Shown here: piece by piece, positions 1 to 15,189 of the stretch
Position numbering within the stretch: the first letter of the stretch is position 1
How the letters are laid out: each line of letters starts with the position of its first letter
Assembly (NCBI GenBank): GCA_934659445.1
Contig: CAKUHV010000030.1
Location: 1 to 16,827 of the forward strand
DNA: 16,827 nucleotides
Source of the DNA: an uncultured Oscillospiraceae bacterium
Lineage (GTDB): Bacteria; Bacillota; Clostridia; Oscillospirales; Oscillospiraceae
Direction of reading: 5' to 3'
Program-made: the position numbers and the translations under genes
The notes under the pieces: generated by a model
What the model was told of the DNA's origin: nothing
The model's input: only the letters and a program-made list of their open reading frames with translations
The model's database searches: none

Positions 1-84
1 ACCCACCCTGCGGAAAATCGACGCCATGGTCATAAAAATGCTGTATAACCGTGCGGATGTACAGGGTACAGGGCATAAAAGTGA

Positions 85-242
85 ACCGTACGCGGGACTC
101 GAACCCACCAGCTGCGCCCGGACAGCCTGCCATCTATGTGCGCCCTTGGCCCGGCGCGGGGGCTTGGCGTCCGCCTTTTCCGTTGTCCAAAACCGGCACC
201 CCGGCCTTCTCCGGGGCGCCGGACGTATTCAGTTGTATCGGT
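85..242 (-). ncRNA. Structured RNA with a tRNA-like T arm (possibly raiA-like)
   Basis: Seen on the minus strand: a closing stem pairs ACCGATAC (242-235) with GTACGGT (91-85), seven pairs with one bulged A. Directly next to its 3' half is a perfect T-arm-like hairpin (108-92) with loop TTCGAGT and a five-pair stem, the same spacing as the T arm and acceptor stem of a tRNA. Near the 5' end is a 12-pair GC-rich hairpin (222-193), and CGGAC at about 173-169 can pair with GTCCG at 123-119. The roughly 158 bases between the ends are too long for a tRNA, and no cloverleaf or CCA end is visible. It begins about 3 bases after the stop codon of the DIP1984-family gene, so it may be cut from that transcript or start within it. 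The family is not certain: raiA-type RNA of Clostridia is my best guess, from memory of its size and host range only. Confidence 0.5.
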
Positions 243-721: not shown

Positions 722-1282
722 TCACTTCCCGCTGAGGATCTCCGCCCGCTTCTGGCGGTACTCCTCCTCGGTATACAGTCCGGCGTCCTTCAGGGTCTTC
801 AGCTGCTCCAGCCGCCCCTCCGGGGTGCGGGCCATGGAGCGGATGTGGTCGTGGTTCTCCTCCTCCGGGGCGGCGTCCCGGCTGTACTTTTCCGCCGCGG
901 CCCGCACGGTGCGCGCCGCCTGACTTACTGCGGGCCGGGCCTCCCACCGGGTCTGAGCCGGCCGGGGGGGAGCGGCGGGCCGCTGGGGTCTGACCGGGGG
1001 ATTGAACTTCAGAGCGGAGGGGTAGTCCTCCGGGTCGTCCTCCGCCCCCATGGTATTTTTCAGGTTCCCCGCCTTAAAGGTGGCCACCCGCCAGCCGTTC
1101 ACGGCGAAGAAGATGCCCCCCAGCACGAAGGGCAGGGCGAACAGCCCCACCACGGGCAGGACGCTCAGCCCCACAAGGGCGAAAATCGTCCCGAAGATCA
1201 TGTGGAAGATCCCCACGCCCCGGACCACAGCCTTGTCGGTTTTGGTGGGCTGGGGGGTGTATCTCTGTCTGTTCTGGGACAT
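722..1282 (-). CDS. Two-helix membrane protein with C-terminal SHOCT domain
   Basis: The 186-residue protein has a short basic N-terminus, then two hydrophobic helices packed closely (about residues 18-40 and 43-66), a Pro/Ala/Arg-rich linker (about 92-130), and a C-terminal SHOCT motif (about 157-184; RLEQLKTLKDAGLYTEEEY). SHOCT is a short domain thought to mediate oligomerisation and is often tethered to membrane segments; its partner here is unknown. An AGGAGG lies 7 bases before the ATG at 1282. It is first in a probable two-gene unit with the DIP1984-family gene. The 106-base gap upstream holds two DnaA-box-like sites (1304-1312 and 1327-1335), so DnaA could influence its expression. No enzymatic motif is visible. 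Confidence 0.8.
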   Translation of the reverse strand: MSQNRQRYTPQPTKTDKAVVRGVGIFHMIFGTIFALVGLSVLPVVGLFALPFVLGGIFFAVNGWRVATFKAGNLKNTMGAEDDPEDYPSALKFNPPVRPQRPAAPPRPAQTRWEARPAVSQAARTVRAAAEKYSRDAAPEEENHDHIRSMARTPEGRLEQLKTLKDAGLYTEEEYRQKRAEILSGK

Positions 1283-1388: not shown

Positions 1389-3911
<2,523 letters not shown>

Positions 3912-3955
3912 TTATATTCTCCTTTGTTCAGGGTAGGAGGGTCGACAGATCGCCC

Positions 3956-3999
3956 CTTGTCATTGCGAGCCAGTGCGCGCACTGGCTCGCAATGACAAG
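3956..3999. repeat. Perfect 44-bp palindrome
   Basis: Two 22-base arms meet with no spacer (centre between 3977 and 3978); the left arm begins CTTGTCATTGCGAGCC. It lies about 45 bases upstream of gyrA. I recall similar CATTGCGAGCC/GGCTCGCAATG palindromes as scattered intergenic repeats in Oscillospiraceae-type genomes, but that is memory, not a search. No T-run follows on the minus strand, so it is not an ordinary terminator. Confidence 0.85.
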
Positions 4000-4036
4000 A
4001 CAGCGCTGACAGAAACCACAATAGAATCATGGGGAT

Positions 4037-4140
4037 ACGGGGGTGACCCCCCGGGAACCCATTTGAAGCACAGCGTCAGCGGGTTCAAATGGGAGCGGAC
4101 TTTGTGACAACAAGGGGGTCATAGGGGGTTTACCCCCTAT
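4037..4140. repeat. Cluster of short palindromes between gyrB and gyrA
   Basis: Three inverted repeats lie in a row: GGGGG-TGA-CCCCC (4039-4051), CCCATTTGAA...TTCAAATGGG (4058-4067 with 4084-4093), and ATAGGGGG...CCCCCTAT (4121-4140). With the 44-bp palindrome they fill most of the 256-base gap. None is followed by a T-run in the minus-strand direction. They look like pieces of repetitive intergenic elements and could pause or attenuate transcription from gyrB into gyrA. No gene is visible in the gap. Confidence 0.6.
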
Positions 4141-4167
4141 ACCAAAAAACGGGTGGGAGGGTGGGTG

Positions 4168-6108
4168 TCAAATATCCAGATTCACCACATACTTGGCGTT
4201 CTGCTCGATCCACTGCTTTCTGGGCTCCACCTGCTCCCCCATGAGGATGGTAAAGATCTGGTCGGCGGCCACGGCGTCGTCCAGGGTGATCCGGCGCAGA
4301 GAGCGCTTCTCCGGGTCCATGGTGGTCTCCCACAGCTCGTGGGGGTCCATCTCGCCCAGACCCTTAAAGCGGTTGATGTCCACCTTGGCGTTGGGGTTGT
4401 CCGCCCGCAGCTCGGCAGAGACCTTGTCCCGCTCCGGGTCGGAGTAGGCCACCCGGGTGGTCTTGCCCCGGGTGAGCTTGTACAGAGGGGGCACGGCGGA
4501 ATAGACATAGCCGTTCTCGATCAGGGGGCGCATATAGCGGAAGAAGAAGGTGAGCAGCAGGGTGCGGATGTGGCTGCCGTCCACATCGGCATCGGCCATA
4601 ATGATGATCTTGTGGTAGCGCAGCTTCTCCACGTTGAACTCCTCTCCGATGCCCGCCCCCAGGGCGGTGATCACGGGCTGGAGCTTGTCGTTGCCGTACA
4701 CCTTGTCCACCCGGGCCTTCTCCACGTTCAGCATCTTGCCCCACAGGGGGAGGATGGCCTGGAACCGGGAGTCGCGGCCCTGAATGGCGGAGCCGCCGGC
4801 GGAGTCGCCCTCGACGATGTAGATCTCGCACAGGCTGGCGTCCCGCTCGTGGCAGTCCTGCAATTTATCGGGCATCTGGCCGGACTCCAGTCCCGTCTTG
4901 CGGCGGACGGCCTCCCGGGCCTTCCGTGCGGCCTCCCGGGCGCGGTTGGCGGTGAGGGCCTTGTCCAGAATGGCCCGGCCCACCTGGGGGTTCTCCTCCA
5001 GGAAGATCTCCAACTTTTCGCTGACAATGTTGTTCACCAGGGTGCGCATTTCGCTGTTGCCCAGCTTGGCCTTGGTCTGACCCTCGAACTGGGCCTCGGT
5101 CAGCTTGACGGAGATGACCACGGTCAAACCCTCCCGGCAGTCCTCGCCGGAGATCTTCTCGTCGTCCTTCAGCAGCTTGATTTTCCGCCCATAGGTATTC
5201 AGAGCGGTGGTCAGCGCCCGGCGGAAGCCCTCCTCGTGCATGCCGCCCTCCGGCGTGTGCACATTGTTGGCAAAGGAGACCATGATCTCGTTGTACCCGT
5301 CGTTATACTGCATGGCCACCTCGGCCATGGAGTCCTCCCGGGCGCCGGACATGTAGATGACCTGTTCGTGCAGGGGCTCCTTGTTCCGGTTGATGAAGGA
5401 GACGAACTCCCGGATGCCCCCCTCATAGCACATATCGTCCTTCTGCTCCATGCCCGGGCGCAGGTCGGCGGTGCGGATGCGCAGGCCGGCATTCAGGAAG
5501 GCCTCCTCCCGCATGCGGGTGTGCAGGGTGTCGTAATTATAGACCAGAGTGTCGAACATCTCCGGGTCGGGCTTGAAGGTGACGGTGGTGCCGGTGCGGT
5601 CGGTGTCCCCCACCACGGTCATCTCCTGGGTGATCTTGCCCCGGGAGAAGCGCATCTGGTAGATCTTGCCGTTCTTGTGCACCTGTACCTCAAGCCACTC
5701 GCTCAGGGCATTCACCACCGAGGCGCCCACGCCGTGCAGCCCGCCGGACACCTTGTAGCCCCCGCCGCCGAACTTACCGCCGGCATGCAGCACGGAAAAA
5801 ACCACCTCCAGCGCCGGCCGCCCGGTCTGGGGCTGGATGTCCACGGGGATGCCCCGGCCGTTGTCCGTAACCGTGATGGTGTTTCCGGGGTTGATGGTCA
5901 CGGTGATCTCGGTGCAGTAGCCGGCCAGCGCCTCGTCGATGGAGTTGTCCACGATCTCATACACCAGGTGGTGCAGTCCGGACTCGCTGGTGGAGCCGAT
6001 ATACATGCCCGGGCGCTTGCGGACTGCCTCCAGTCCCTCCAGCACCTGGATCTCGGAGCCGCCGTAGGCGTGCTCCACCTGGGTGGAATTCAAAAGTTCT
6101 TCTGCCAT
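4168..6108 (-). CDS. gyrB: DNA gyrase subunit B
   Basis: 646 residues. ATPase subunit of gyrase; it partners GyrA in the cytosol. The GHKL ATP-binding domain has EIVDNSIDE (51-59), DNGRG (82-86) and SGGLHGVG (121-128). The transducer follows to about 390. The TOPRIM domain has EGDSAGGS (433-440), where Glu433 is the expected metal-binding acid, and DADVDG (506-511). The gyrase-type C-terminus has RFKGLGEM (580-587) and ends [22 protein letters not shown] has Trp where many GyrB have Arg, a variant I associate with Clostridia. The ATG at 6108 is chosen because [10 protein letters not shown] matches normal family starts and AAGGAG lies about 7 bases before it; reading further upstream enters hairpin-rich sequence. 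remB lies 285 bases upstream. Confidence 0.97.
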
Positions 6109-6188
6109 AGTTTCTCTCCTTCGTCGTGCTGCGGCCGCCGGCCGGATTATCTTCACCCCCGGAATGGGGGAAGTCTGTAAAGTCAGTA

Positions 6189-6390
6189 TTCCAACCTCTT
6201 GTTGGAAAAGCCCTCCCGCAGGGAGTTCCGCCGCTCGCAAGTGGCGGAATAAATTTTAATCCGTCATTTCCGACGACAAGTGCGTCGGAAATGACACTTC
6301 TCGCGCGGGCCAGCCCGACTTTTTCGTAAGAAATCGAGGGCTGGTTCGCGTGCATCCTGACTCTCCAAAGTGGCTTCGCCACTTTGGAGA
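6189..6390. repeat. Series of six hairpins in the gyrB leader
   Basis: In the 285-base gap between remB and gyrB, successive inverted repeats occur: TTCCAAC/GTTGGAA (6189-6207), CTCCC/GGGAG (6213-6225), TTCCGCC/GGCGGAA (6226-6249), GTCATTTCCGACG/CGTCGGAAATGAC (6263-6295), a 15-pair stem with G-T wobbles (6302-6316 with 6338-6352), and a 13-pair stem with a 3-base loop (6362-6390) just after the remB stop. None carries a clear T-run on the minus strand. Together they form the RNA leading into gyrB. They may be repeat debris or a pausing/processing region. Confidence 0.65.
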
Positions 6391-6393
6391 TGG

Positions 6394-6654
6394 TTATTCA
6401 AAGCTGTTGCGCTCCACGCGCCCTGTCAGTGCGGCGGAGCTGAGCTGAGACAGGTAAACGGTGGTTTTTTCTCCATGGCCTGTCACCACAAAAGAACGGG
6501 GCAAGTCGTCACACGCGGAAATGACCCGGCCCTCCTCCTCCGCCCGGTCTAAAAACTCTCTGGTTTTATAGGCCCAGCTGGCGTTGTCCAGGTCGAAGAT
6601 GCCCAGAATATCGCTGTGGTGTACCATCACAGACTGTCCAAGATGCAAATACAT
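6394..6654 (-). CDS. remB: RemB-like extracellular matrix regulator
   Basis: 86 residues, close to the length of B. subtilis YaaB/RemB, and in the same place, between recF and gyrB. It begins MYLHLGQSVMVHHSDILGIFDLDN and later has SFVVTGHGEKTTVYLSQLSSAAL, matching the family's start, IFD motif and terminal LS-S-L block. RemA/RemB proteins are small DNA-binding regulators; RemB in B. subtilis promotes matrix gene expression. What it controls here cannot be read from the sequence. The ATG at 6654 has only a weak purine-rich stretch upstream (AGGCGG, about 8-10 bases before). It is separated from recF by a 306-base gap containing a MITE-like element, so it may not share the recF transcript. Confidence 0.85.
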   Translation of the reverse strand: MYLHLGQSVMVHHSDILGIFDLDNASWAYKTREFLDRAEEEGRVISACDDLPRSFVVTGHGEKTTVYLSQLSSAALTGRVERNSFE

Positions 6655-6718
6655 AGCGATACCGCCTGTTTATGGGATTGAATGCTCTTTTATTTGTTGG
6701 GAAGGATATGATTCGCCG

Positions 6719-6861
6719 GCCAAGCCTCCCTCTGACGAGGGAGGTGGCAAAACCGAAGGTTTTGACGGAGGGAGAGACCGATTCGGTGTGCCGCGTTCCT
6801 TATAAATTCTCTCCCTCAGTCAGCCTGTCGGCTGACAGCTCCCTCGTCAGAGGGAGCCAAG
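6719..6861. mobile_element. MITE-like non-coding element
   Basis: An 18-bp perfect inverted repeat CTCCCTCTGACGAGGGAG (6726-6743; complement at 6839-6856) bounds a non-coding unit, itself flanked by GCCAAG in direct orientation (6719-6724 and 6856-6861). Inside are nested stems: AAAACC/GGTTTT (6749-6763), GAGGGAGAGA/TCTCTCCCTC (6768-6777 with 6808-6817) and GTCAGCC/GGCTGAC (6819-6836). Each terminal arm is also a small hairpin. Size, terminal repeats and absence of an open frame fit a miniature inverted-repeat element moved by an enzyme encoded elsewhere. I recall similar elements in Faecalibacterium-type genomes. Whether GCCAAG is a target duplication or part of the element is unclear. Confidence 0.7.
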
Positions 6862-6880
6862 GGTATCGGCAGCATTTCGC

Positions 6881-6966
6881 CGTAGGACAAAGGCTCTGCC
6901 CTTGCCTTCCAAAGCCCCCTTGCACAAGGGGGCCTTGGCACGGGCGGCCACAGGCCGCCCCTACGG
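6881..6966. repeat. Composite palindromic repeat, copy A
   Basis: A CGTAGGACAA...TCTGCCCTTG segment (6881-6905) is followed by a CCCCCTT/AAGGGGG hairpin, then CTTGGCACGGGCGGCCACA and the hairpin GGGCGGCC-ACA-GGCCGCCC ending CTACGG. A more degenerate relative lies at 9903-9990, and parts recur at 8417-8468 and 11500-11560. It reaches the recF stop codon, so the repeat may supply the end of recF. Confidence 0.65.
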
Positions 6967-8073
6967 CTTCGCAACAAACGCCCCGTTCTTCACCTGAAAC
7001 GCTCTGCCGCCCTCTAAACCTTCCAATTTCTCCTCCTCGCAGCAGGTGATGAAAACCTGTCCCCCCTTAATGCGGTTCAGAACGAAAGATTGCCGTTTTG
7101 CGTCCAACTCTGATAAAACATCGTCCAGAAGCAGCACCGGCCACTGGCCGGTCTCCTCCTCCATGATCTCCCGCTGGGCCAGCTTCAACGACAGGGCCGC
7201 CGTGCGGGTCTGTCCCTGAGAGGCGAAGGTCTTGGCCGGTGCGCCGTTGATGGTCACCAGCAGGTCGTCCTTGTGGGGGCCGGACAGGCACTGGCGGGCA
7301 TCCAGCTCCGCCTGCCGGTGGCTCTCCTGATGCTCCAGCAGCCGGGGCAGCAGCTCCCGGGGGGTCTTCAGGGGGTCGTCCACAGTGGACACGGTGGCGT
7401 ATTCCAGCCCCAGCCGCTCCCGCGCACCGGAAAAGTCCCCGTGGATGGCGGGGGCGTTCTCCCGCAGCCGCCTGACAAAGTGGGCCCGGTAGTGGATCAG
7501 GATAGCCCCGGTCTGGGCCATGCGCAGATTGAAGTCATCCAGAGTCTGCAAAAGGGAGGGATCCTCCTGCCAGTCCCGCAGGATGCGGGTCTTGTGGTCA
7601 TACAGGCGGTTATACTCCGCCAGAGCGGCGGCATACCGGGGCCGCAGCTGGCAGATGGCGGCATCCAGAAATTTTCTTCGGGCGGCCGCCCCCTCCCGGA
7701 TCAGATACAGGTCCTCCGGGCAGAACAGCACGGTGGTCAGAATGCCGGACAGCTCCGACGCCGTTTTCAGACGCACCCCGTTGGAGCGCAGCTGCCGCCC
7801 CCGGCCCCGGAACAGATCGGCCTCCAGCGTGAAGTCCCGGCCCCGGCCCTGGATCTCCCCCTTCAGAAAGGCGGAGTCCACCCCCATCATGATCAGCTCC
7901 CGGTCGAACCGGGTGCGGTGGGACTTGGCGGAGGACAGATAGGCGATGGCCTCCAGCAGGTTGGTCTTGCCCTGGGCGTTGTCCCCGTAGATCAGGTTCA
8001 CCCGGGGGTCGAAATCGGCCTGCAGATGGACATAATTCCGGAAATAGTCCAGGGTCAATGAGCGGAGGATCAT
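6961..8073 (-). CDS. recF: DNA replication and repair protein RecF
   Basis: 370 residues, normal for the family. RecF is an ABC-type ATPase that, with RecO and RecR, loads RecA at single-strand gaps on duplex DNA. Walker A is GDNAQGKTN (30-38), the signature motif is LSGPHKDD (263-270), SQGQ lies at 285-288 and the Walker B/D-loop [11 protein letters not shown] at about 314-324. The N-terminus [14 protein letters not shown] is typical. The ATG at 8073 overlaps the yaaA stop by four bases (ATGA), so the two are translationally coupled. The last residues (NGAFVAKP) run into a repeat copy, which may have supplied the stop region. Confidence 0.97.
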
Positions 8074-8285
8074 GTGACCGTGAGGATCAGCTCGTTATCC
8101 AGAATGCAGCGGTCGCCGGGGCGCAGCTTTTTGCCCCGCATGGTGCAGACCTCGCCGTTGACCAGCACCCGCCCCTCCTGAATGATCAGCTTGGCGTCGC
8201 CCCCGGTCTCTACCGCGCCGGCGAACTTCAGCAGATCCTGCAGCTTGATGTATTCCGTGTGGATCTTGATCTCGTGTGTTTCCAT
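8070..8285 (-). CDS. yaaA: S4-domain RNA-binding protein YaaA (RlbA)
   Basis: 71 residues, the usual size of the small S4-like protein between dnaN and recF in Firmicutes. The S4 core is visible: [18 protein letters not shown] (about 12-29), then [16 protein letters not shown] (about 31-46), [10 protein letters not shown] and a closing strand. It is thought to bind RNA, with a role in ribosome biogenesis in B. subtilis; its exact target here is unknown. A GAGG stretch about 6 bases before the ATG acts as the ribosome site. It overlaps recF by four bases. A 258-base palindrome-filled gap separates it from dnaN. Confidence 0.92.
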
Positions 8286-8340
8286 AAAAACCTCGATGTT
8301 GTGATTGGGCTGTAAAAGGGGGTGAGTTTCTTCTAAAGCC

Positions 8341-8492
8341 CCCCTTGATAAAGGGCCGATTCCCCCTATCAGGGGAAAATGTCCCGCAGGGACAAAAGGG
8401 GTAGGGATCAGCGGTCTCTACGAGAAATTACGGACGTTACGCGCCGTAGGGGCGGATATTATCCGCCCGCGGGCCGCCACATGGGGCGGCCC
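8341..8492. repeat. Repeat-rich dnaN-yaaA gap (copy B of dispersed family)
   Basis: This stretch contains hairpins TTCCCC/GGGGAA (8360-8377), TGTCCC-GCA-GGGACA (8380-8394), GGGCGGAT-ATT-ATCCGCCC (8450-8468) and GGGCCGCC/GGCGGCCC (8471-8492). CTACGAGAAATTACGGACGT (8419-8438) and the CGCCGTAGGG that follows closely match CTACGAGGAATCACGAACGT and CGCCGTAGGG near 11509-11541. No gene is visible in the 258-base gap (8286-8543). No T-run suitable for a dnaN terminator was found. Confidence 0.6.
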
Positions 8493-8543
8493 CTGCGAGG
8501 GACCGTACCCGTTTTATGCACCGGGCCGCCCGGGCGGGTGGAT

Positions 8544-9653
8544 TCACGTCCCCGCCTTCAGCCGCACGGGCAGCACCATATAGACGAACTTCTCCTCCCC
8601 CTCGGCGGGCAGGATCACGCAGGGGGCCACGCCGGTGGTGAACTCCATGCGCAGCTTATCCGCCGGGGCGTTCTTCACCGCGTCCATCAGGTACTTGTTG
8701 TTGAAGCCGATCTCCAGCCCCCCGCCGCTGCCCTCGATGGGGCACTGGTCGGCGGCATCGCCGATGGCGGTCTTGGTGGTGATGGACAGCTCCTCGTCCC
8801 CGAACACGCACCGCAGGGGGGACTTGAGCTTTTCGCTGATGATCAGGGACACCCGGTCCAGACTGGCCATCAGGGTGCGGCTGTCCACGGTGATGCCGAT
8901 GGTGTTGTTCCGGGGAATGGCGTTTTTATAGGGCAGGAACTCCCCCTCCAGCCGGCGGCACACCAGCAGGATGTCCCCGGCCTTGAACAGGATGTGCCGC
9001 GCGCCCTGGGTGACGGTCACGTCCCCCTCGCCGGAGCAGATCTTCTCCACCTCGCTCAGGGCGGAGCCGGGCACCACGAAGGAGAACTTATCCATGCCGT
9101 GCTTTTCCGCCACCGTCTCCTTCCGCAGGGCCAGACGGTAGCCGTCTACGGACACCACGGACAGGCTGTCCCCGTCCACATCGAAAAGGGAGCCGGTGTG
9201 CACCGGACGGCTCTCGTTGGTGCTGACGGCGAACAGGGTCTGGCCGATCATGGACCGCAGCACAGGCTGGGGCAGGGTCAGGGCGTTCTGCTGGTCTACC
9301 TCGGGCAGCTCGGGGAACTCCTCCGGATCGGTGGCCAGAATGTTGAACTCGGACAGGCCGCACTTGATGTTCACGTTATAGTTGTTGGAGACGAAGGTGA
9401 CCACATCGTCGGGCATTTTCCGCACGATCTCGGAAAACAGGCGGGCGGACAGCACCAGCGAGCCCTTCTCCCGGATCTCGGCGGGCACGGTGGCCTGAAT
9501 GCCTGTCTCCAGATTGTAGCCGGTCAGTCGCAGGGTATCGCCGGCCTCGATGAGGATACCCTCCAGCGCGGGGATGGAGCTTTTGGGCGCCACCGCCCGG
9601 GAGGCGGTGGATACCGCCGCGGAGAGCAGGGCCTTTTCGCAGGAAAATTTCAT
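8544..9653 (-). CDS. dnaN: DNA polymerase III beta sliding clamp
   Basis: 369 residues, the normal length for a beta clamp with three repeats of the clamp fold. It forms the ring dimer that tethers DNA polymerase III and binds many repair proteins. The start MKFSCEKALLSAAVSTASRA is typical of the family, as are SSIPALEGI (near 29), the MIGQTLFAVSTNESRP region and the C-terminal YMVLPVRL segment, which corresponds to the usual M-P-M/V-R-L ending. AGGAGGT lies 5 bases before the ATG at 9653. A longer reading upstream would run into the DnaA-box region and is rejected. dnaA lies 376 bases upstream, the gap being the probable origin. Confidence 0.97.
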   Translation of the reverse strand: MKFSCEKALLSAAVSTASRAVAPKSSIPALEGILIEAGDTLRLTGYNLETGIQATVPAEIREKGSLVLSARLFSEIVRKMPDDVVTFVSNNYNVNIKCGLSEFNILATDPEEFPELPEVDQQNALTLPQPVLRSMIGQTLFAVSTNESRPVHTGSLFDVDGDSLSVVSVDGYRLALRKETVAEKHGMDKFSFVVPGSALSEVEKICSGEGDVTVTQGARHILFKAGDILLVCRRLEGEFLPYKNAIPRNNTIGITVDSRTLMASLDRVSLIISEKLKSPLRCVFGDEELSITTKTAIGDAADQCPIEGSGGGLEIGFNNKYLMDAVKNAPADKLRMEFTTGVAPCVILPAEGEEKFVYMVLPVRLKAGT

Positions 9654-9700
9654 AGGGGACCTCCTTGGGTCTTTCTCTCTCAGAAGGAGGAGAGGAAAGG

Positions 9701-9884
9701 ATATTTTTTCGTAAAAGCCGTAGGGGCTGTGCAAACTGTGTAAGAATGGCGGAAAGCGCTGGGGGAGTAAGGAAAAACCGTCCACAGGGGGTGTGGAAAA
9801 GCAGAGGGCCTTTCCACAGCGGTCCACAGGGGAGATCGGACCCCTTTTTGCCCCTTTCCACATTCCACATTGTCATGTGGAAGA
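9701..9884. other. oriC: Probable oriC: DnaA-box cluster and AT-rich segment
   Basis: Between dnaA and dnaN, DnaA-box-like sites sharing TCCACA occur at 9778-9786 (CCGTCCACA), 9792-9800 (minus, TTTTCCACA), 9810-9818 (CTTTCCACA), 9820-9828 (CGGTCCACA), 9854-9862 (CTTTCCACA), 9861-9869 (CATTCCACA) and 9876-9884 (minus, TCTTCCACA), plus a weak one at 9737-9745. A short A/T run (9701-9709, ATATTTTTT) on the dnaN side is a candidate unwinding element, the side used in B. subtilis. The position and cluster are characteristic of Firmicutes oriC. Most boxes differ from the strict consensus at positions 1-3, so the functional set is a guess. Confidence 0.85.
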
Positions 9885-9902
9885 ACGGGAGATAGAACGT
9901 TT

Positions 9903-9990
9903 CGTAGGGCAAGGGATCTGCCCTTGACGGCCTGTAGACGGCGGCCCTTTCGCAAGGAAGACTTGGAACGGGCGGCCACACAGGGCCTTC
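9903..9990. repeat. Composite palindromic repeat, copy C (degenerate)
   Basis: CGTAGGGCAAGGGATCTGCC (starting 9903) is followed by a CCCTTTCGCAAGG segment and CTTGGAACGGGCGGCCACA, the same order of parts as the copy at 6881-6966 but with more mismatches. It lies between the DnaA boxes and the end of dnaA, so it sits inside the origin gap. Confidence 0.6.
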
Positions 9991-10029
9991 CCTGAGGGAT
10001 ATCATAGATAACGGCCTTTGTATCGCTTC

Positions 10030-11343
10030 TCAATCATACCGGTTGTTCACGTTGGAGGTGATGTCCTTGATGATCTCCTTCAGCTCCCGGTCGGTCTTCA
10101 GCATGGTCTCGATGCGCTCGGCGGAGTGCATAACGGTGGTGTGGTCCCGGCCGTCGAACTCCCGGCCGATCTCCTTCAGGGACAGGTTGGTCATCTGCCG
10201 GATCTGATACATGGCGATCTGCCGGGCGTAGACCACATCCTTGGTGCGGGTCTGGCCCCGGAGGACGTCGGGCTCCAGATTGAAGAACTTGCAGACCTCC
10301 TCGATGATGACCCCGGCGGTGGGCAGGATGTCGGTCTTGTCGTTGAGCATATCCTTCACCGCCCGCAGCACCGTGTCCTTGTTCACCGCGTCCCCCATCA
10401 GGTCCTGATAGGCCAGCAGCTTGTTCACCGTGCCCTCGATCTGCCGCACGCTGGAGGTGATGTTCTCCGCGATGTACTCCAGCACCGGGGCGGGCAGCTC
10501 TACCCCCATGCGGATGGCCTTGTTCTTGATGATGGCCACCCGGGTCTCATAATCCGGGGGCTGCACGTCGCAGGTCAGGCCCCGGCGGAACCGGTCCCGC
10601 AGGCGCTGCTCCAGCCGCAGCATCTCCGTGGGCGGCCGGTCGGAGGTGAACACGATGGGATTGCCCTGCTCGTACAGGGTGTTGAAGGTGTGGAACAGCT
10701 CCTCCTCGCTGGAGTCCTTGCCGGCAATGAACTGCACGTCGTCCATCAGGAACAGGTCGGCGGTGCGGTACTTGTCCCGGAACTGCTGCATATCGGCCCC
10801 TCGGCGGAGATAGCCGATGAGCTCGTTGACGAAGTCCTCGCTTTTCAGGTACTGGATGTTGTACTCCGGGTGGAGCTGGCGCACCTTGTGGGCGATGGCG
10901 TATAGCAGGTGGGTCTTGCCCAGGCCGGGCTGGCCGTAGATAAAAAGGGGGTTGTAGTTCTCTCCGTTGCCCTCGGCCACCGCCAGGGCGGCGTTGTAGG
11001 CATATTTGTTGGAGGGGCCCACCACAAAGTTGTCAAAGGTGTATTTATCCGTCACCGCAAAGCTCTCCGGCTTGGGCTTGGCGTAGTTGGCCAGCTGGTC
11101 CTCGGTGAGCACCACCACCTCCAGGTCGGAGGAGAACAGCTCCTTCAGGGCGGCCTGGATGCGGGGGGCGTAGCGGGAGGCGATGATGTCCCGCTTCCAG
11201 CGGGAGGGACTGTACAGGACGAACCGGGTCTCCTCCAGCGCCACGGCGGTGGCGTCGTCAAACCAGGTCTTGATGGTGGTACTGGTCATCTCGGGCTGCA
11301 TCAGCTCCAGGACCTTGGACCAGACGTCGGCGGCAGGATTCAT
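10030..11343 (-). CDS. dnaA: Chromosomal replication initiator DnaA
   Basis: 437 residues. It binds DnaA boxes, forms an ATP-dependent filament and opens oriC. Domain I covers about 1-80 (WFDD, SRWKRDII); domain II is short (about 82-100); domain III is the AAA+ module with Walker A GQPGLGKT (137-144), Walker B LFLMDDVQF (Asp201-Asp202) and an arginine-rich RLRDRF (247-252) region; domain IV carries the DNA-reading signature DGRDHTTVMHS (397-407). The ATG at 11343 is chosen because AGGAGG lies about 7 bases before it and MNPAADVWSKVLE matches family starts; an upstream in-frame start would overlap the promoter. A minus-strand promoter lies at 11411-11439, and a DnaA-like box at 11603-11611 could contribute to autoregulation. 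Confidence 0.98.
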   Translation of the reverse strand: MNPAADVWSKVLELMQPEMTSTTIKTWFDDATAVALEETRFVLYSPSRWKRDIIASRYAPRIQAALKELFSSDLEVVVLTEDQLANYAKPKPESFAVTDKYTFDNFVVGPSNKYAYNAALAVAEGNGENYNPLFIYGQPGLGKTHLLYAIAHKVRQLHPEYNIQYLKSEDFVNELIGYLRRGADMQQFRDKYRTADLFLMDDVQFIAGKDSSEEELFHTFNTLYEQGNPIVFTSDRPPTEMLRLEQRLRDRFRRGLTCDVQPPDYETRVAIIKNKAIRMGVELPAPVLEYIAENITSSVRQIEGTVNKLLAYQDLMGDAVNKDTVLRAVKDMLNDKTDILPTAGVIIEEVCKFFNLEPDVLRGQTRTKDVVYARQIAMYQIRQMTNLSLKEIGREFDGRDHTTVMHSAERIETMLKTDRELKEIIKDITSNVNNRYD

Positions 11344-11410
11344 TCCGGGGCCTCCTTCATGGGAAAAATCGGGGCGCACAGGGGGAAAAACGCCCACCTG
11401 CAACTGATTT

Positions 11411-11439
11411 ATTATACCAAATTTTTGCCCGCATAGCAA
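11411..11439 (-). promoter_or_regulatory. Predicted dnaA promoter
   Basis: On the minus strand, -35 TTGCTA (11439-11434) and a perfect -10 TATAAT (11416-11411) are separated by 17 bases. Transcription would begin around 11404, about 60 bases before the dnaA start codon. This is a standard housekeeping-sigma promoter. Confidence 0.75.
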
Positions 11440-11499
11440 GGTTTTCACGGGTATTTTTATTTATAAATGTATGGGGAAAAATGCCGGCTTTTGGCGGAG

Positions 11500-11560
11500 G
11501 GCGGCCCCTACGAGGAATCACGAACGTTGTGCGCCGTAGGGCAAGGACTCTGCCCCTGCC
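11500..11560. repeat. Dispersed palindromic repeat, copy D
   Basis: GGGCGGCCCCTACGAGG, a CACGAACGTTGTGCGCCG segment and CGTAGGGCAAGGACTCTGCC (11535-11554) lie between the divergent dnaA and rpmH promoters. The first half matches the copy at 8417-8450 and the second half matches copies at 6881 and 9903. Confidence 0.6.
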
Positions 11561-11602
11561 GCGTACACCCTTCCCCGGCACCCGGTGGTATGCCCGGAAA
11601 AA

Positions 11603-11611
11603 TCGTCCACA
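11603..11611 (+). promoter_or_regulatory. Possible DnaA box in dnaA-rpmH gap
   Basis: TCGTCCACA differs from TTATCCACA at two positions. It lies about 48 bases upstream of the rpmH -35 element. A second, dnaA-upstream box group would make the origin bipartite as in B. subtilis, but a single weak site is thin support. Confidence 0.35.
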
Positions 11612-11658
11612 AGATGTTGTTGCGGACAAAAAATCACCTTTTTCCGGCAAAATTTTGG

Positions 11659-11688
11659 TTGACATAGTGCGGCGCAATCGTCTATAAT
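11659..11688 (+). promoter_or_regulatory. Predicted rpmH operon promoter
   Basis: A perfect -35 TTGACA (11659-11664) and a perfect -10 TATAAT (11683-11688) are separated by 18 bases. The start would be around 11695, giving an rpmH leader of about 120 bases. The leader contains CCGGC/GCCGG segments (about 11750-11790) that can pair in more than one way. Confidence 0.85.
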
Positions 11689-11815
11689 GGTATCCGCTAT
11701 TCCCACGGGGTGTTTTTGCGCCCTTTTGGGAACGGAACCACAGACCGCAGCCGGCAACGGCTGTTGTTGGGCCGGGTAAAAGCCGGCTTCATTCAGATTT
11801 GAGGAGGTGTCCCCC

Positions 11816-11950
11816 ATGCTTCGTACCTATCAGCCCAAGAAGCGCCAGCGTTCCAAGGAGCACGGCTTCCGCAAGCGTATGGCCACCCGCAACGGCCGCA
11901 AGGTGCTGGCCCGCCGCCGCGCCAAGGGCCGCGCGAAACTGACTTACTGA
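11816..11950 (+). CDS. rpmH: Large ribosomal subunit protein bL34
   Basis: 44 residues, the standard size for L34: [20 protein letters not shown], then [19 protein letters not shown] and a final KLTY. It is a very basic protein of the 50S subunit. It begins with ATG at 11816 behind GAGGAGGTG. It is the first gene after the strong promoter at 11659-11688. A 153-base gap then separates it from rnpA, holding an 11-position hairpin (12026-12051, GAGA loop, one mismatch) and a small GCGGG/CCCGC hairpin; these may protect or process the rpmH messenger. Confidence 0.98.
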
Positions 11951-12103
11951 TCCAGCTAAGTCAGGGCGCCGGTGTTACCGGAGCGGATCATACGAGGACA
12001 CAGTTTAGATAACACGCAGCACACAGGGGCGTGGGAGAGATCCCCCGCCCCATAAAGTGCATATGCGGGTTTTCCCGCTGCGTGGTCAGGACGGAGGAAG
12101 CTC

Positions 12104-12457
12104 ATGAAGCACACCGTTGCACTCAAGCAGAATCATGAATTCCGCCGGCTGTACAGCAAGGGCAAGAACGCCGCCTCGCCCTACTTTGCCGTCTACTGCC
12201 GAAGGACCGGCCGGCCCTACAGCCGCCTTGGTCTGACCACAGGGGTAAAGCTGGGCAACGCGGTCAAGCGCAACCGGGTGCGCCGCCGGATGCGGGAGCT
12301 TTACCGCACCAACGAGCAGAGACTTCGTCCCGGCTATGACATCGTCATAGTGGCCCGCACGCGGGCCATCTTTGCCCGCTACAGCGACCTTGAGAGCAGC
12401 TTTCTGCGCCTGATGAAAAAGCTGGAGCTCACCCTCCCCCGGGAGGAAACGCCATGA
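12104..12457 (+). CDS. rnpA: Ribonuclease P protein component
   Basis: 117 residues, the normal length. It is the basic protein that binds the RNase P RNA and helps it trim 5' leaders from precursor tRNAs. The signature [17 protein letters not shown] lies at 49-65 (the RNR box); the N-terminus [19 protein letters not shown] and the [15 protein letters not shown] region near 88 are also typical. GGAGG lies about 6 bases before the ATG. It overlaps yidD by four bases (ATGA), so translation is coupled. It is downstream of rpmH in the universal bacterial order. Confidence 0.97.
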
Positions 12458-12672
12458 AGGCCCTTCTCCTCGCCCTGATCCGGTTCTACCGCCGCGCCAT
12501 CTCTCCCCTGCGTCCCCCCTGCTGCCGCTTTATCCCCACCTGCTCCCAGTACGCGCTGGAGGCGGTGGAAAAATACGGGGCATGGAAGGGGGGCTGGCTG
12601 GCCCTGCGCAGATTTCTCCGGTGCCAGCCCTTCCACCGGCAGGAGACCATCGAGTACGACCCCGTGCCGTAG
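12454..12672 (+). CDS. yidD: Membrane protein insertion efficiency factor YidD
   Basis: 72 residues, typical size. The family's landmarks are present: [20 protein letters not shown], then [19 protein letters not shown] and a basic [11 protein letters not shown] segment. It is a small, amphipathic, membrane-associated protein thought to help membrane-protein insertion together with YidC. The usual C-H-P-F-H-P-G-G ending is altered to [16 protein letters not shown], losing the Gly-Gly but keeping the final DPVP. The start overlaps rnpA by four bases. yidC follows after 36 bases. Confidence 0.95.
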
Positions 12673-12708
12673 TCTCCCGCCCCATTCTGAACTTGCGGAG
12701 GAACTATC

Positions 12709-14127
12709 GTGGATATTATTCTGAAACCCTTCAGCTGGCTGCTGACCTTTTTCTATCAGTTTGCCGGCTATGGTGTTGCCCTGATCCTGTTCGGCTTCGT
12801 GGTCAAGCTGATCCTGTTCCCTGTCACCCTGAAGCAGAAAAAGAGCATGATCCAGATGAATATGCTCTCCGGCCGGGTGCAGAAGCTTCAGGCCCAGTAT
12901 GGCAAGACCAACCCCCAGCGCTACCAGGAGGAGGTCCAGAAGCTCTACGCCCAGGAGAAGGTCAACCCCATGGGCGGCTGCGCCTGGTCCCTTGTGCCCA
13001 TGGTGGTGCTGATCGCCCTGTACGGCATCATCCGCAACCCCATCCAGCGGATGATGGGCGTGCCCGCCGACATGATCGACACCGTTGCCAAGATCACCGG
13101 CGTCGAGAACACCGGCGCCTATCCCCAGATCTCCATGGCCCGCGCCCTGGGCGACCCCAGCGTGCTGGCCAGCGCCAAGCAGGCCCTGGGCGAGGCCGGA
13201 GACGGCCTGTTCGCCATGAACTTCAGCTTCCTGGGTCTGGATCTGGACGCCATCCCCACCTGGAAATTCTGGGAGGGGGGCATCCACTGGGCCACCCTGG
13301 GCCTGTTCCTGCTGGTGCTGGTGTCCACCGGCGTGTCCTTCCTGTCCATGAAGGTCTCCATGCAGACCAACAAGATCAATAACCAGACCCAGAACGCCCA
13401 GATGGACCAGACCAACAAGACCATGATGCTGATGATGCCCCTCATGTCCCTGTGGATCGGCTTCACCGTGCCTGCCGCCCTGTCCGTCTACTGGATCTCC
13501 CAGTACCTGATGACCATGGTGCAGGAGGTGGTCTGCGGCAAGATGCTGAAGAAGGACTACGAGGCCGCCCGCGCCGCTGCCGAGGAGGCCGCCCGCCTTG
13601 CCAAGGAGGAGGAGAAGCGCCGCAAGGAGGAGGCCCGCCTTGAGCGCGCCCGCCGCATCGAGGAGGAGAAGCTCAACCGGAAGAAGGGCATCAAGAAGGG
13701 GGACGAGTCTGGACAGGAGGGCGTGAACCGCGCCGACAGCCGGGAGGGCATCCGCACCTATGCCCGGGGCCGGGCCTACATCCCCGGCCGCTTCGGCGAG
13801 GTGACCCCCTACGCCGACCCCAACGACCTGTTCCGTGCCAGAGCGGAGGCCGCCCAGGCCGCCGCCGGGAAAAAGAAGAAGGACAAGAAGGCCGGGCAGG
13901 AGCAGCCCGCTGCCCCCGCCCCCGCCGAAAAGCCCGCCGAGACCCCTGTGGAGGCGCCCGCCGTCGAGACCCCCGCTGAGGAGGATCAGGCCGCAGTGCT
14001 GCCCGCCCCGGAGGAGAACGCCGCTCCCACCCAGTCCCCCGCCCCCGCCCAGACCGAGGAGGTCGAGGTAGAGGTGGAGCAGGAGGAAGTGGAGCTGCCT
14101 GACAGCGACGAGAAGGAGGGCGAGTGA
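12709..14127 (+). CDS. yidC: Membrane protein insertase YidC/OxaA
   Basis: 472 residues, long for a Firmicutes YidC. It inserts membrane proteins, alone or with SecYEG. The start is GTG at 12709, with GGAGG 7 bases before it; no ATG fits. There is no lipoprotein signal. Hydrophobic segments lie at about 12-38, 90-108, 195-220 and 240-270, with Lys33 in VVKLILFP where many homologues have Arg in the hydrophilic groove. From about residue 280 comes a charged helix rich in Glu, Lys, Arg and Ala, then a patch with RTYARGRAYIPGRFGEV, then a Pro/Ala/Glu-rich, strongly acidic tail of about 85 residues. The tail is low-complexity and absent from short homologues. It is immediately followed by jag. 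Confidence 0.95.
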   Translation: MDIILKPFSWLLTFFYQFAGYGVALILFGFVVKLILFPVTLKQKKSMIQMNMLSGRVQKLQAQYGKTNPQRYQEEVQKLYAQEKVNPMGGCAWSLVPMVVLIALYGIIRNPIQRMMGVPADMIDTVAKITGVENTGAYPQISMARALGDPSVLASAKQALGEAGDGLFAMNFSFLGLDLDAIPTWKFWEGGIHWATLGLFLLVLVSTGVSFLSMKVSMQTNKINNQTQNAQMDQTNKTMMLMMPLMSLWIGFTVPAALSVYWISQYLMTMVQEVVCGKMLKKDYEAARAAAEEAARLAKEEEKRRKEEARLERARRIEEEKLNRKKGIKKGDESGQEGVNRADSREGIRTYARGRAYIPGRFGEVTPYADPNDLFRARAEAAQAAAGKKKKDKKAGQEQPAAPAPAEKPAETPVEAPAVETPAEEDQAAVLPAPEENAAPTQSPAPAQTEEVEVEVEQEEVELPDSDEKEGE

Positions 14128-14129
14128 GC

Positions 14130-15116
14130 ATGGTACAGTGGATCGAGACCACCGGCCGCACCGAGGAGGACGCCATCGCCGCCGCCCTGTTCCAGCTGGG
14201 TCTGGAGCGGGACGACGTCTCCGTTGAAGTGGTGGAGCGGGCCAAGTCCGGCTTCCTGGGCTTCGGCGGCAACCCCGCCAAGGTGCGCGTCAGCTACGAG
14301 GCAGCGGAGGAGGGCGGCAAGCCCCAGCCCATGAAGGATGAGTTCAAGCTCAGTGTCTTTGACGAGCCGGCCCCCGCCAAGCCGGAGCCGCCACAGGCCG
14401 CCCCCGCCCCTGTCATCCCCGAGGAGAAGAAGGCCCCCAAGCCGGAGCGCCCCCAGCTGGAGCCCGGCGACGAGATCATCATGGCCGCCCCCCCGAAGAA
14501 GGAGGAGCCCCGCCCCGCCCGCGCCGAGCGGCCCCGGCAGGAGCGCGCCCCCCGGTCTGACCGCCGGAGCGACCGCCCCGCCCCCCGTCCCCGGCAGGAC
14601 GGCGCCCCCGTGCACATGGCGGCGGAGGACCTGCCTCTGGCCGCTGCGGACGACGAGAAGGCCCAGCGCATCACCCAGTTCCTCACCGGCCTGATGGAGC
14701 ACCTGCACGTGCAGGCCGAGCCCCAGGTCCATGTGAACGAGGAGGGGGCCTATCGGGTCATTCTGGCCGGCCACGACCTGGGGGCCATCATCGGCCGCCG
14801 GGGCGAGACCCTGGACGCCATCCAGCAGCTGACCAACTATGCCGTCAACCACGGCCAGTCCAAGCGGGTGCGCATCCAGATCGATGCCGAAGGCTACCGC
14901 GCCAAGCGGGAGGAGTCCCTCCAGCGGCTGGCCGTCAAGGTGGCGGGCAAGGTGGTCAAATACCGCAAGAACGTCACTCTGGAGGCCATGAACGCCTATG
15001 AGCGCCATGTGATCCATACCGCCCTTCAGGATTACCCCAACGTTACCACCTTCTCCACCGGTGTGGAGCCCAACCGCCGCACCGTGGTGGCCTACGCCCC
15101 CGGCGAGAAGAAGTAA
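14130..15116 (+). CDS. jag: RNA-binding protein Jag (KhpB/EloR), KH and R3H domains
   Basis: 328 residues. The Jag-N domain (about 1-55) has WIETTGRTEEDAI and KSGFLGFGGNPAKVRV; a Pro/Ala/Arg-rich linker (about 62-165) follows; the KH domain has GRRG (222-225) before ETLDAIQQLTNYAV; and the R3H domain covers about 245-328 with ERHVIH. KhpB/EloR binds RNA and influences cell elongation and division in streptococci; the role here is inferred from that. ATG at 14130 is preferred over GTG at 14124, which would overlap yidC, because AGGAGG (14114-14119) is 10 bases from the ATG but only 4 from the GTG, and homologues begin close to WIETTGR. A strong terminator follows. Confidence 0.95.
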   Translation: MVQWIETTGRTEEDAIAAALFQLGLERDDVSVEVVERAKSGFLGFGGNPAKVRVSYEAAEEGGKPQPMKDEFKLSVFDEPAPAKPEPPQAAPAPVIPEEKKAPKPERPQLEPGDEIIMAAPPKKEEPRPARAERPRQERAPRSDRRSDRPAPRPRQDGAPVHMAAEDLPLAAADDEKAQRITQFLTGLMEHLHVQAEPQVHVNEEGAYRVILAGHDLGAIIGRRGETLDAIQQLTNYAVNHGQSKRVRIQIDAEGYRAKREESLQRLAVKVAGKVVKYRKNVTLEAMNAYERHVIHTALQDYPNVTTFSTGVEPNRRTVVAYAPGEKK

Positions 15117-15129
15117 GAGCAATAAAAAA

Positions 15130-15175
15130 CCCCCCGCCGTTTCCAGATCCGGGAACGGCGGGGGGCTTTTCTTTT
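15130..15175 (+). terminator. Intrinsic terminator after jag
   Basis: A 15-pair stem joins CCCCCCGCCGTTTCC (15130-15144) with GGGAACGGCGGGGGG (15151-15165), one G-T wobble, with loop AGATCC, followed by CTTTTCTTTT. It ends the rpmH-jag unit. An A-run precedes the stem, so it could also work in the other direction. Confidence 0.95.
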
Positions 15176-15189
15176 GTCCCAATTCGACT

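Follow-up and report, generated by a model that had tools for sequence, protein, structure and literature searches.

The question raised by this locus is whether the DNA directly behind a DIP1984-family gene encodes a structured RNA and, if so, how far that RNA extends, whether it belongs to a known family and what it does with the adjoining gene. The window, meaning the whole stretch of 16,827 nt that was analysed, carries this gene on the minus strand at 246-707 (DUF6847, 153 aa, TAA stop at 246-248). Its family identity, proposed in an earlier note on this DNA, was confirmed by both curated profiles, with NF038048 scoring 161.5 bits against a cut-off of 70 and PF20935 scoring 160.2 bits against a cut-off of 27. 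The same note had placed a compact folded RNA of about 158 bases at 85-242. A structured RNA is present, but the proposed extent did not hold, since the conserved RNA directly behind the gene is about 190 nt long, with a core that runs on the minus strand from about position 188 to the window edge at position 1. When 80 DIP1984 loci from species genomes were compared, one pattern was found behind nearly every gene and extended well past 85-242, and in these relatives the RNA continues for about 90 nt beyond the T arm. The 158-nt piece alone folds no better than shuffled sequences (z -0.84; 41 of 200 shuffles were as good), so single-sequence folding gives it no support.

The family was defined from an alignment of 52 sequences (A2), made with MAFFT without structure from the window and 51 of the 68 loci in which an RNA had been parsed, and a covariance model of 193 positions (R1) was built from it. 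On the window, whose row is part of the training alignment, R1 matches 1-192 of the minus strand with 100.1 bits over model positions 1-183 of 193 and is 3'-truncated; the DIP1984-linked RNA is placed at 1-188 (minus), its 3' end cut by the window edge. R1 matches were found in 76 of the 80 DIP1984 loci as well as in the window. Those on the 51 training loci are expected by construction, and the independent tests of the model are the 25 matching loci outside A2, the named records, two protein-blind genome sets and the viral loci. The counts below refer to 77 copies, the 76 loci and the window, which remained of 78 matches once a short spurious one (L077 706-781, 10.4 bits) had been removed.

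Two of the features that had been assigned to the folded RNA lie outside its conserved part or do not recur. The 12-pair GC hairpin exists at 193-222 (minus; arms 211-222 and 193-204), but it belongs to the linker that joins the DIP1984 stop to the RNA core (189-245, minus), outside the aligned conserved core. This linker is longer than in most relatives, where the distance from the DIP1984 stop to the RNA start (model position 6) has a median of 12.5 nt and a range of 6-799 (n=76). The suggested closing stem, ACCGATAC at 235-242 with GTACGGT at 85-91 (minus), can be drawn as a bulged pairing in the window but is not a feature of the family. The conserved closing helices are instead P1 and P2.

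All elements of the RNA lie on the minus strand. It begins with a 5' element, GGACAACGG at 180-188, which in A2 reads GGTWGC or GGTAGY in many relatives and whose last three bases are part of P1. P1 pairs CGGAAAA (176-182) with TTTTCCG (11-17), its extent in the window having been set by eye, and in A2 both strands change at its inner 4 pairs. P2 pairs GACGCC (166-171) with GGCGTC (20-25); all 6 of its pairs vary on both sides and 98.0% of cells are paired. The window row pairs in both helices. Inside them lies an H-type pseudoknot, PK1, detected by a search for H-type pseudoknots, in which stem 1 pairs GCCC (160-163) with GGGC (149-152) and stem 2 pairs GCGCC (153-157) with GGCGC (140-144), the second stem being supported by covariation as well. 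A second pseudoknot, PK2, forms between the loop of the P4 hairpin (GGCTGT-CCGGGC-GCAGCT, 110-127), which holds GGGC at 116-119 within loop positions 116-121, and GCCC at 71-74, a segment behind the T arm; the pairing was assessed by a permutation test. Both pseudoknots are found in the window. The stretch from 26 to 70, GTACCCTGTACA ... TTATGACC, has no assigned helix and reads GTTACA or GTACA ... TTATTACC in many relatives in A2. The RNA ends in a G-rich 3' tail, GAGGGTGGGNNNGGGGA in many copies, which is among the most conserved parts of A2 and lies mostly past the window edge. Only its start, GGGTGGGT at 1-8, is present in the window, and the candidate continuation past position 1 is NNNGGGGA.

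Covariation in relatives, the check suggested in the earlier note, was strong for P1, P2 and both pseudoknots. In A2, 94.7% of 958 cells are standard pairs against 39.7-51.4% when the partner is slid by 1-3 columns, although the counted structure was derived from the same sequences and is favoured over the slid versions. Cells changed on both sides number 230 compared to 74.9 (sd 9.5) in shuffles, and such changes occur in 17 of 19 pairs compared to 13.2 in shuffles (3 of 500 shuffles as high); relatedness among the sequences raises such values, but the excess is large nonetheless. With 5000 permutations of partners for each, the own-partner score exceeded the permutation maximum for P1 (8.92 against 3.98), for its outer 4 nt (9.25 against 3.90), for P2 (14.67 against 11.47) and for PK1 stem 2 (9.00 against 6.55). 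PK1 is present in 75 of the 77 copies, 70 of which have the same narrow geometry. In 50 of 77 copies its own score is higher than that of any of 20 shuffles, and in 75 of 77 it is above the shuffle mean, while 89 of 1540 shuffles reach the own score. PK2 covaries by clade (GGAC/GTCC, GAAC/GTTC, GAGC/GCTC, GGGC/GCCC and GGGA/TCCC), with a family mean of 11.06 against 8.59 in 2000 permutations (sd 0.42, maximum 10.30). The own PK2 score is above the mean of swapped partners in 64 of 77 copies; the pairing is absent in 6 of 77, and a script found no P4 hairpin in 13 of 77, nearly all of them copies without a T arm. These two pseudoknots are the conserved counterparts, elsewhere in the RNA, of the possible long-range pairing that had been noticed at 85-242. 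That a DIP1984-linked RNA family exists is close to certain.

The tRNA-like T arm that first drew attention to this site is real (GTGGG-TTCGAGT-CCCGC, 92-108, minus). However, an arm with a TTCRANN-type loop was counted in 61 of 77 copies by one script and in 62 by another, with one of these 62 (L048) probably spurious, and this occurrence in only part of the family makes it peripheral. Fifteen copies fail the T-arm test, L017 by one pair and 14 clearly, either because the loop is missing or because no more than 2 of 5 pairs form. Where it occurs, the arm hardly varies, its own score of 8.56 being equal to the permutation maximum of 8.56 (mean 8.29). Many members carry it as an add-on, but it does not define the family.

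Known RNA families were then compared with the new one. Rfam 15 at gathering score gave no match at the RNA in 16 loci. In searches to E 10, the window returned only two sub-cut-off fragments over the linker hairpin, L015 returned none and L076 returned only a 15-base mascRNA fragment, and ten other loci searched to E 0.1 had no match at the RNA. As the earlier note had recognized, the site is not a tRNA, since neither ARAGORN nor Rfam calls one there. The tmRNA that works with SmpB also has a T arm plus pseudoknots, and a link to translation is suspected for the DIP1984-linked RNA too, but no tmRNA was called by ARAGORN at the site or by Rfam to E 10 in the window, L076 and L015. The bacterial Y RNA YrlA carries a tRNA-like arm and is encoded near the gene of its protein (Ro60/Rsr). 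The DIP1984-linked RNA is similar in both respects, but its T arm is optional and Rfam gave no Y RNA match to E 10 in the window, L076 and L015, a search run without a positive control against a release that presumably includes a YrlA model. A YrlA-type neighbour was rejected, as the adjoining gene is DIP1984 and its protein has no match to the TROVE/Ro profile of Pfam. OLE RNA with OapA is another large structured RNA with a protein partner; the RNA-protein partnership would be alike, but size and protein differ and no Rfam match was found in the scanned loci.

Membership in the raiA family, one of two possibilities raised earlier, was not supported. RF03072 had no match to E 10 in the window, L076 and L015 and none in 8 genomes with a DIP1984-linked RNA, whereas 19 of 118 Clostridia genomes matched as a positive control, and R1 found nothing on two fetched raiA loci. 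In PMC11751092 and PMC11706538, raiA (ModT RNA) is described as an RNA of about 200 nt with two pseudoknots and highly conserved unpaired bases that occurs in Bacillota and Actinomycetota, and the OapA ribonucleoprotein is mentioned in the latter. Compared with this description, the DIP1984-linked RNA is alike in size, in its two pseudoknots, in its conserved unpaired bases and in host phyla. It differs in its linkage to DIP1984 and in its usual T arm, and no covariance-model match was found either way in the scans. The other possibility, an undescribed RNA, was supported: no Rfam 15 family matched in the loci scanned, and no description of a DIP1984-linked RNA was found in the literature searched, which included a term search of the main text of the discovery papers PMC11109978 and PMC8632094. 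The DIP1984-linked RNA matched none of the families tested.

The genetic linkage of this RNA to DIP1984 is near-obligate. The four DIP1984 loci without an R1 match (L003, L033, L064 and L074) have 278, 284, 135 and 96 contig bases left after the gene. The remainders of L064 and L074 are too short to show an RNA, whereas an adjacent RNA would fit in those of L003 and L033 and, as none is seen, has been lost or lies farther off. The L064 contig is exactly as long (68585) as contig C25 of genome G392, in which the RNA lies 148 bases from the end of a different contig, and this suggests that an assembly break explains the RNA missing from L064. All 12 genomes reached through DIP1984 loci contain one copy above 73 bits, and every other match is at most 25.8 bits, many of these being short and over T-arm positions. 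When R1 was used without regard to the protein, it found the RNA in 8 of 293 Clostridia genomes; DIP1984 is present in 9 of the same 293, including all 8. In each of the 8 carriers DIP1984 immediately precedes the RNA on the same strand (established by tblastn for seven and by coordinates for G001). For the divergent DIP1984 gene of the ninth genome, G096 (locus L103), no RNA was detected, even when the filters were switched off. Within the order, the RNA occurs in 13 of 245 genomes, a set that shares at least G001 with the 293 Clostridia genomes, and these are the same 13 that have DIP1984. Gene and RNA are at most about 60 bases apart in 11 of them, 236 bases apart in one and on separate contigs in one, where each of the two lies near a contig end.

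Apart from the RNA, the neighbourhoods of DIP1984 vary. An upstream gene that we take to be gyrA-like was found in at least 26 of the 80 loci and a downstream gene that appears from its sequence to encode an RNase HI-like protein in at least 14 of the 80, both counts being lower bounds because contigs end. A terminator-like hairpin follows within 110 nt of the RNA in 29 of 75 loci compared to 1.6% of shuffles, as counted by a simple script. Together with the short gap between stop codon and RNA, this suggests common transcription, and the earlier question of whether the RNA comes from the DIP1984 messenger can be answered in that the RNA is plausibly cut from the same transcript. The gap is not always short, as five loci keep an RNA of at least 104.7 bits at 294-799 nt downstream of DIP1984. 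In L005, L007 and L041, about 680-800 nt separate the DIP1984 stop from the RNA, yet the RNA scores at least 150 bits.

The pair is not confined to Clostridia. Seven regions outside the Clostridia set were fetched, and R1 matched behind DIP1984 in six: Paracoccus versutus (50.6 bits), Picosynechococcus (57.3 bits), Mycobacterium branderi (71.9 bits), Streptomyces (56.0 bits), an Enterococcus phage contig (35.6 bits) and a gut contig (68.2 bits). The seventh, from Acinetobacter, gave 17.9 bits at the expected position once the filters were switched off, and by eye this copy has a 10-pair P1 and is without the G-rich tail. The named phyla with the pair are Bacillota, Actinomycetota, Cyanobacteriota and Pseudomonadota. 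Harmless carriers include Picosynechococcus sp. PCC 7117 (L082), a Streptomyces strain (L084) and Flintibacter muris (L030). DIP1984 itself is present in 362 plasmid records, 341 of them from Acinetobacter, and in 5 phage records. Some of the Acinetobacter plasmid proteins (L085; plasmid records H21 and H35) are labelled septicolysin, a label without support in the tests made here, in which the family match is DIP1984. Near DIP1984 on the Enterococcus phage contig (L086), a T-box leader-like match was observed at 1043-1272 (minus) with 83.3 bits against a gathering score of 93.

Evidence for the pair in viruses is thin. Among eight viral DIP1984 loci, L104 alone has a strong R1 match (59.3 bits). 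Weak matches downstream of the gene (13.1-19.6 bits) were obtained in L105, L106, L109, L110 and L111, where the RNA was recognized by eye, as it was in L108, which has just a stray R1 match; R1 finds nothing in L107. L106 is of the same sequence type as the Acinetobacter plasmids. L105 (3986-5005) and L109 (3537-4040) each have one DIP1984 gene accompanied by two diverged RNA copies, and in the L109 record one copy attains 25.1 bits. A scan of viral contigs for the tail pattern gave 10 matches. In four of these (L113 and L116, of one RNA type, L114 and L117) an RNA was seen by eye with DIP1984 upstream; two of them, L114 and L117, repeat the contigs of L104 and L109, so that L113/L116 alone are new. 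The other six contigs have neither DIP1984 nor an RNA by eye, yet five score 15.2-23.6 bits over short tail spans, which means that weak R1 scores alone prove little.

Several of the viral copies have neighbours connected with tRNA or translation. Four of the eight viral loci contain tRNA genes, namely L104 (7), L108 (7), L111 (11) and L110 (2, which lie 1.6 kb from the RNA and of which one has a doubtful anticodon), whereas none were found in the 50 bacterial loci scanned out of the 80. In L104 the RNA is separated from the gene by about 310 nt containing a coding-like stretch with a stop, and 0.4 kb beyond the RNA there is a gene for RtcB ligase (E 3.5e-62). In L111 a PTH2 gene lies 0.8 kb upstream of DIP1984, and a short RF-1-domain protein with a GGQ motif is encoded at the 3' end of the RNA (3793-4158) in a phage tRNA array; it scored below the cut-offs of the PrfH, ArfB and other release-factor models. 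In G311 thirteen short T-arm-like R1 matches all fall within 18.6-33.8 kb of 115 kb, with the RNA at 27.4 kb.

The RNA is observed to be conserved, to covary and to be linked to DIP1984, and what these properties may say about function is conditional. Judged from sequence comparison, there is about an even chance that this is a trans-acting RNA which is produced and functions together with DIP1984, perhaps in the maintenance of tRNAs or ribosomes. The RNA would be closed by P1 and P2, would hold the H-type pseudoknot, the P4-loop pseudoknot, an optional T arm and the G-rich 3' tail, and would be co-transcribed with DIP1984 and then released by processing and termination. It may then act in trans within a ribonucleoprotein whose dedicated protein component would be DIP1984. 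Trans action with DIP1984 is suggested by the linkage, by the phage contigs with two copies and by the copies that lie 294-799 nt from the gene. The field of action is named with less assurance: tRNA or ribosome upkeep may be indicated by the several phage copies in tRNA arrays, the one near RtcB and the one before a release-factor-like gene, but tRNA genes are missing from four of eight viral loci and from all 50 scanned bacterial ones, which counts against this reading. The divergent DIP1984 of L103, viral locus L107 and loci L003 and L033, none of which gave an RNA match, also speak against it, as does the Acinetobacter copy that is without the G-rich tail.

The protein offers few clues of its own. 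DIP1984 is predicted to be helical with a beta hairpin (AlphaFold2, pLDDT 94), and its sole clear fold match, 3KDQ, is itself without known function. Invariant polar residues in 35 family proteins include Q31, N65, E111, R135, Q142, N145 and W146. The same proteins are acidic (median pI 5.64, range 5.01-8.73), unlike a classic basic RNA binder, and this counts against a ribonucleoprotein. A literature search for the name DIP1984 found a single, unrelated paper, and one for DUF6847 found no paper.

A more specific form of the proposal is possible but unlikely. Phage tRNAs can counter host tRNA nucleases, and RtcB repairs cut RNA. From the sequence context, DIP1984 and its double-pseudoknotted RNA could be imagined as an undescribed class of ribonucleoprotein that shields or mends tRNAs or ribosomes when nucleases attack them, and phages would carry it in tRNA arrays, sometimes with paralogous RNAs, as a counter-defence beside RtcB and rescue factors.

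The alternative that survives best, though it too is unlikely, is that no free RNA is made and that the structure is a cis-acting 3'-UTR element of the DIP1984 messenger, whose stability or translation DIP1984 or some other factor would adjust by binding there. The short gap from stop to RNA would fit this as well, as would the shared strand, the terminator-like hairpin that then follows in 29 of 75 loci and the single strong copy in each of 12 of 12 genomes. However, such an element would not be expected in the five loci that keep an RNA of at least 104.7 bits 294-799 nt downstream, some 310 nt from the gene behind a stop-interrupted coding-like stretch in L104, or twice beside one gene in L105 and L109, and the fold seems elaborate for it.

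It is rather doubtful that the RNA is a tRNA mimic or decoy, in which the T arm, perhaps together with the 5' GGTAG element, would form an elbow like that of tRNA and so attract or sequester tRNA enzymes. Mimicry of tRNA has precedent in bacterial Y RNAs, the T arm with its TTCRANN-type loop is carried by 61-62 of the 77 copies, and some phage copies sit in tRNA arrays, one near RtcB. Against this, 15 of the 77 copies fail the T-arm test (14 clearly), Rfam gave no Y RNA match in the window, L076 and L015, and DIP1984 has no TROVE/Ro profile match. A type III-like toxin-antitoxin unit, with the RNA neutralising DIP1984, is improbable. It would suit a small protein that adjoins a pseudoknotted RNA and that is found on 362 plasmid records and in phage or viral records, but type III antitoxins are upstream repeats whereas this RNA is downstream and usually single, PADLOC gives DIP1984 just weak matches to JetC (E 0.0017) and LmuB (E 0.013), and the gyrA-like gene upstream in 26 of 80 loci is a stable setting. 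Control of the gene downstream of the RNA can nearly be dismissed, for although an RNase HI-like gene comes next in 14 of 80 loci, with GGGGA just upstream of its ATG in several by eye, other downstream genes vary and a terminator-like hairpin stands behind the RNA in 29 of 75 loci.

Partnerships between a protein and a large structured bacterial RNA are already familiar in general. The reading as a trans-acting partner of DIP1984 would add to them a conserved, heavily covarying RNA that is tied almost always to one small protein family and spread over at least four named phyla and phages; new bacterial RNA families of such size, complexity and spread appear to be rare. As a protein partner with a solved structure (3KDQ) is in place, the functions of RNA and protein can be tested together.

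The remainder of the window gave a few minor observations. Its translations indicate what we take to be a replication-origin-like order of gyrA, gyrB, recF, dnaN, dnaA, rnpA, yidD, yidC and jag at 1389-15116. Between the gyrA-like gene and DIP1984, a small protein with hydrophobic stretches is encoded at 722-1282 (minus), and its C-terminal SHOCT-like motif scores 22.3 bits in Pfam, below the cut-off of 27. ARAGORN reported a tRNA-Glu at 13056-13143 (minus), inside and antisense to a long open reading frame at 12709-14127 that is presumably yidC, and this tRNA is probably a false positive. A strong hairpin followed by a T run at 15124-15183 (minus) has a weak rdlD match (24.7 bits against a gathering score of 50) and is probably a terminator.
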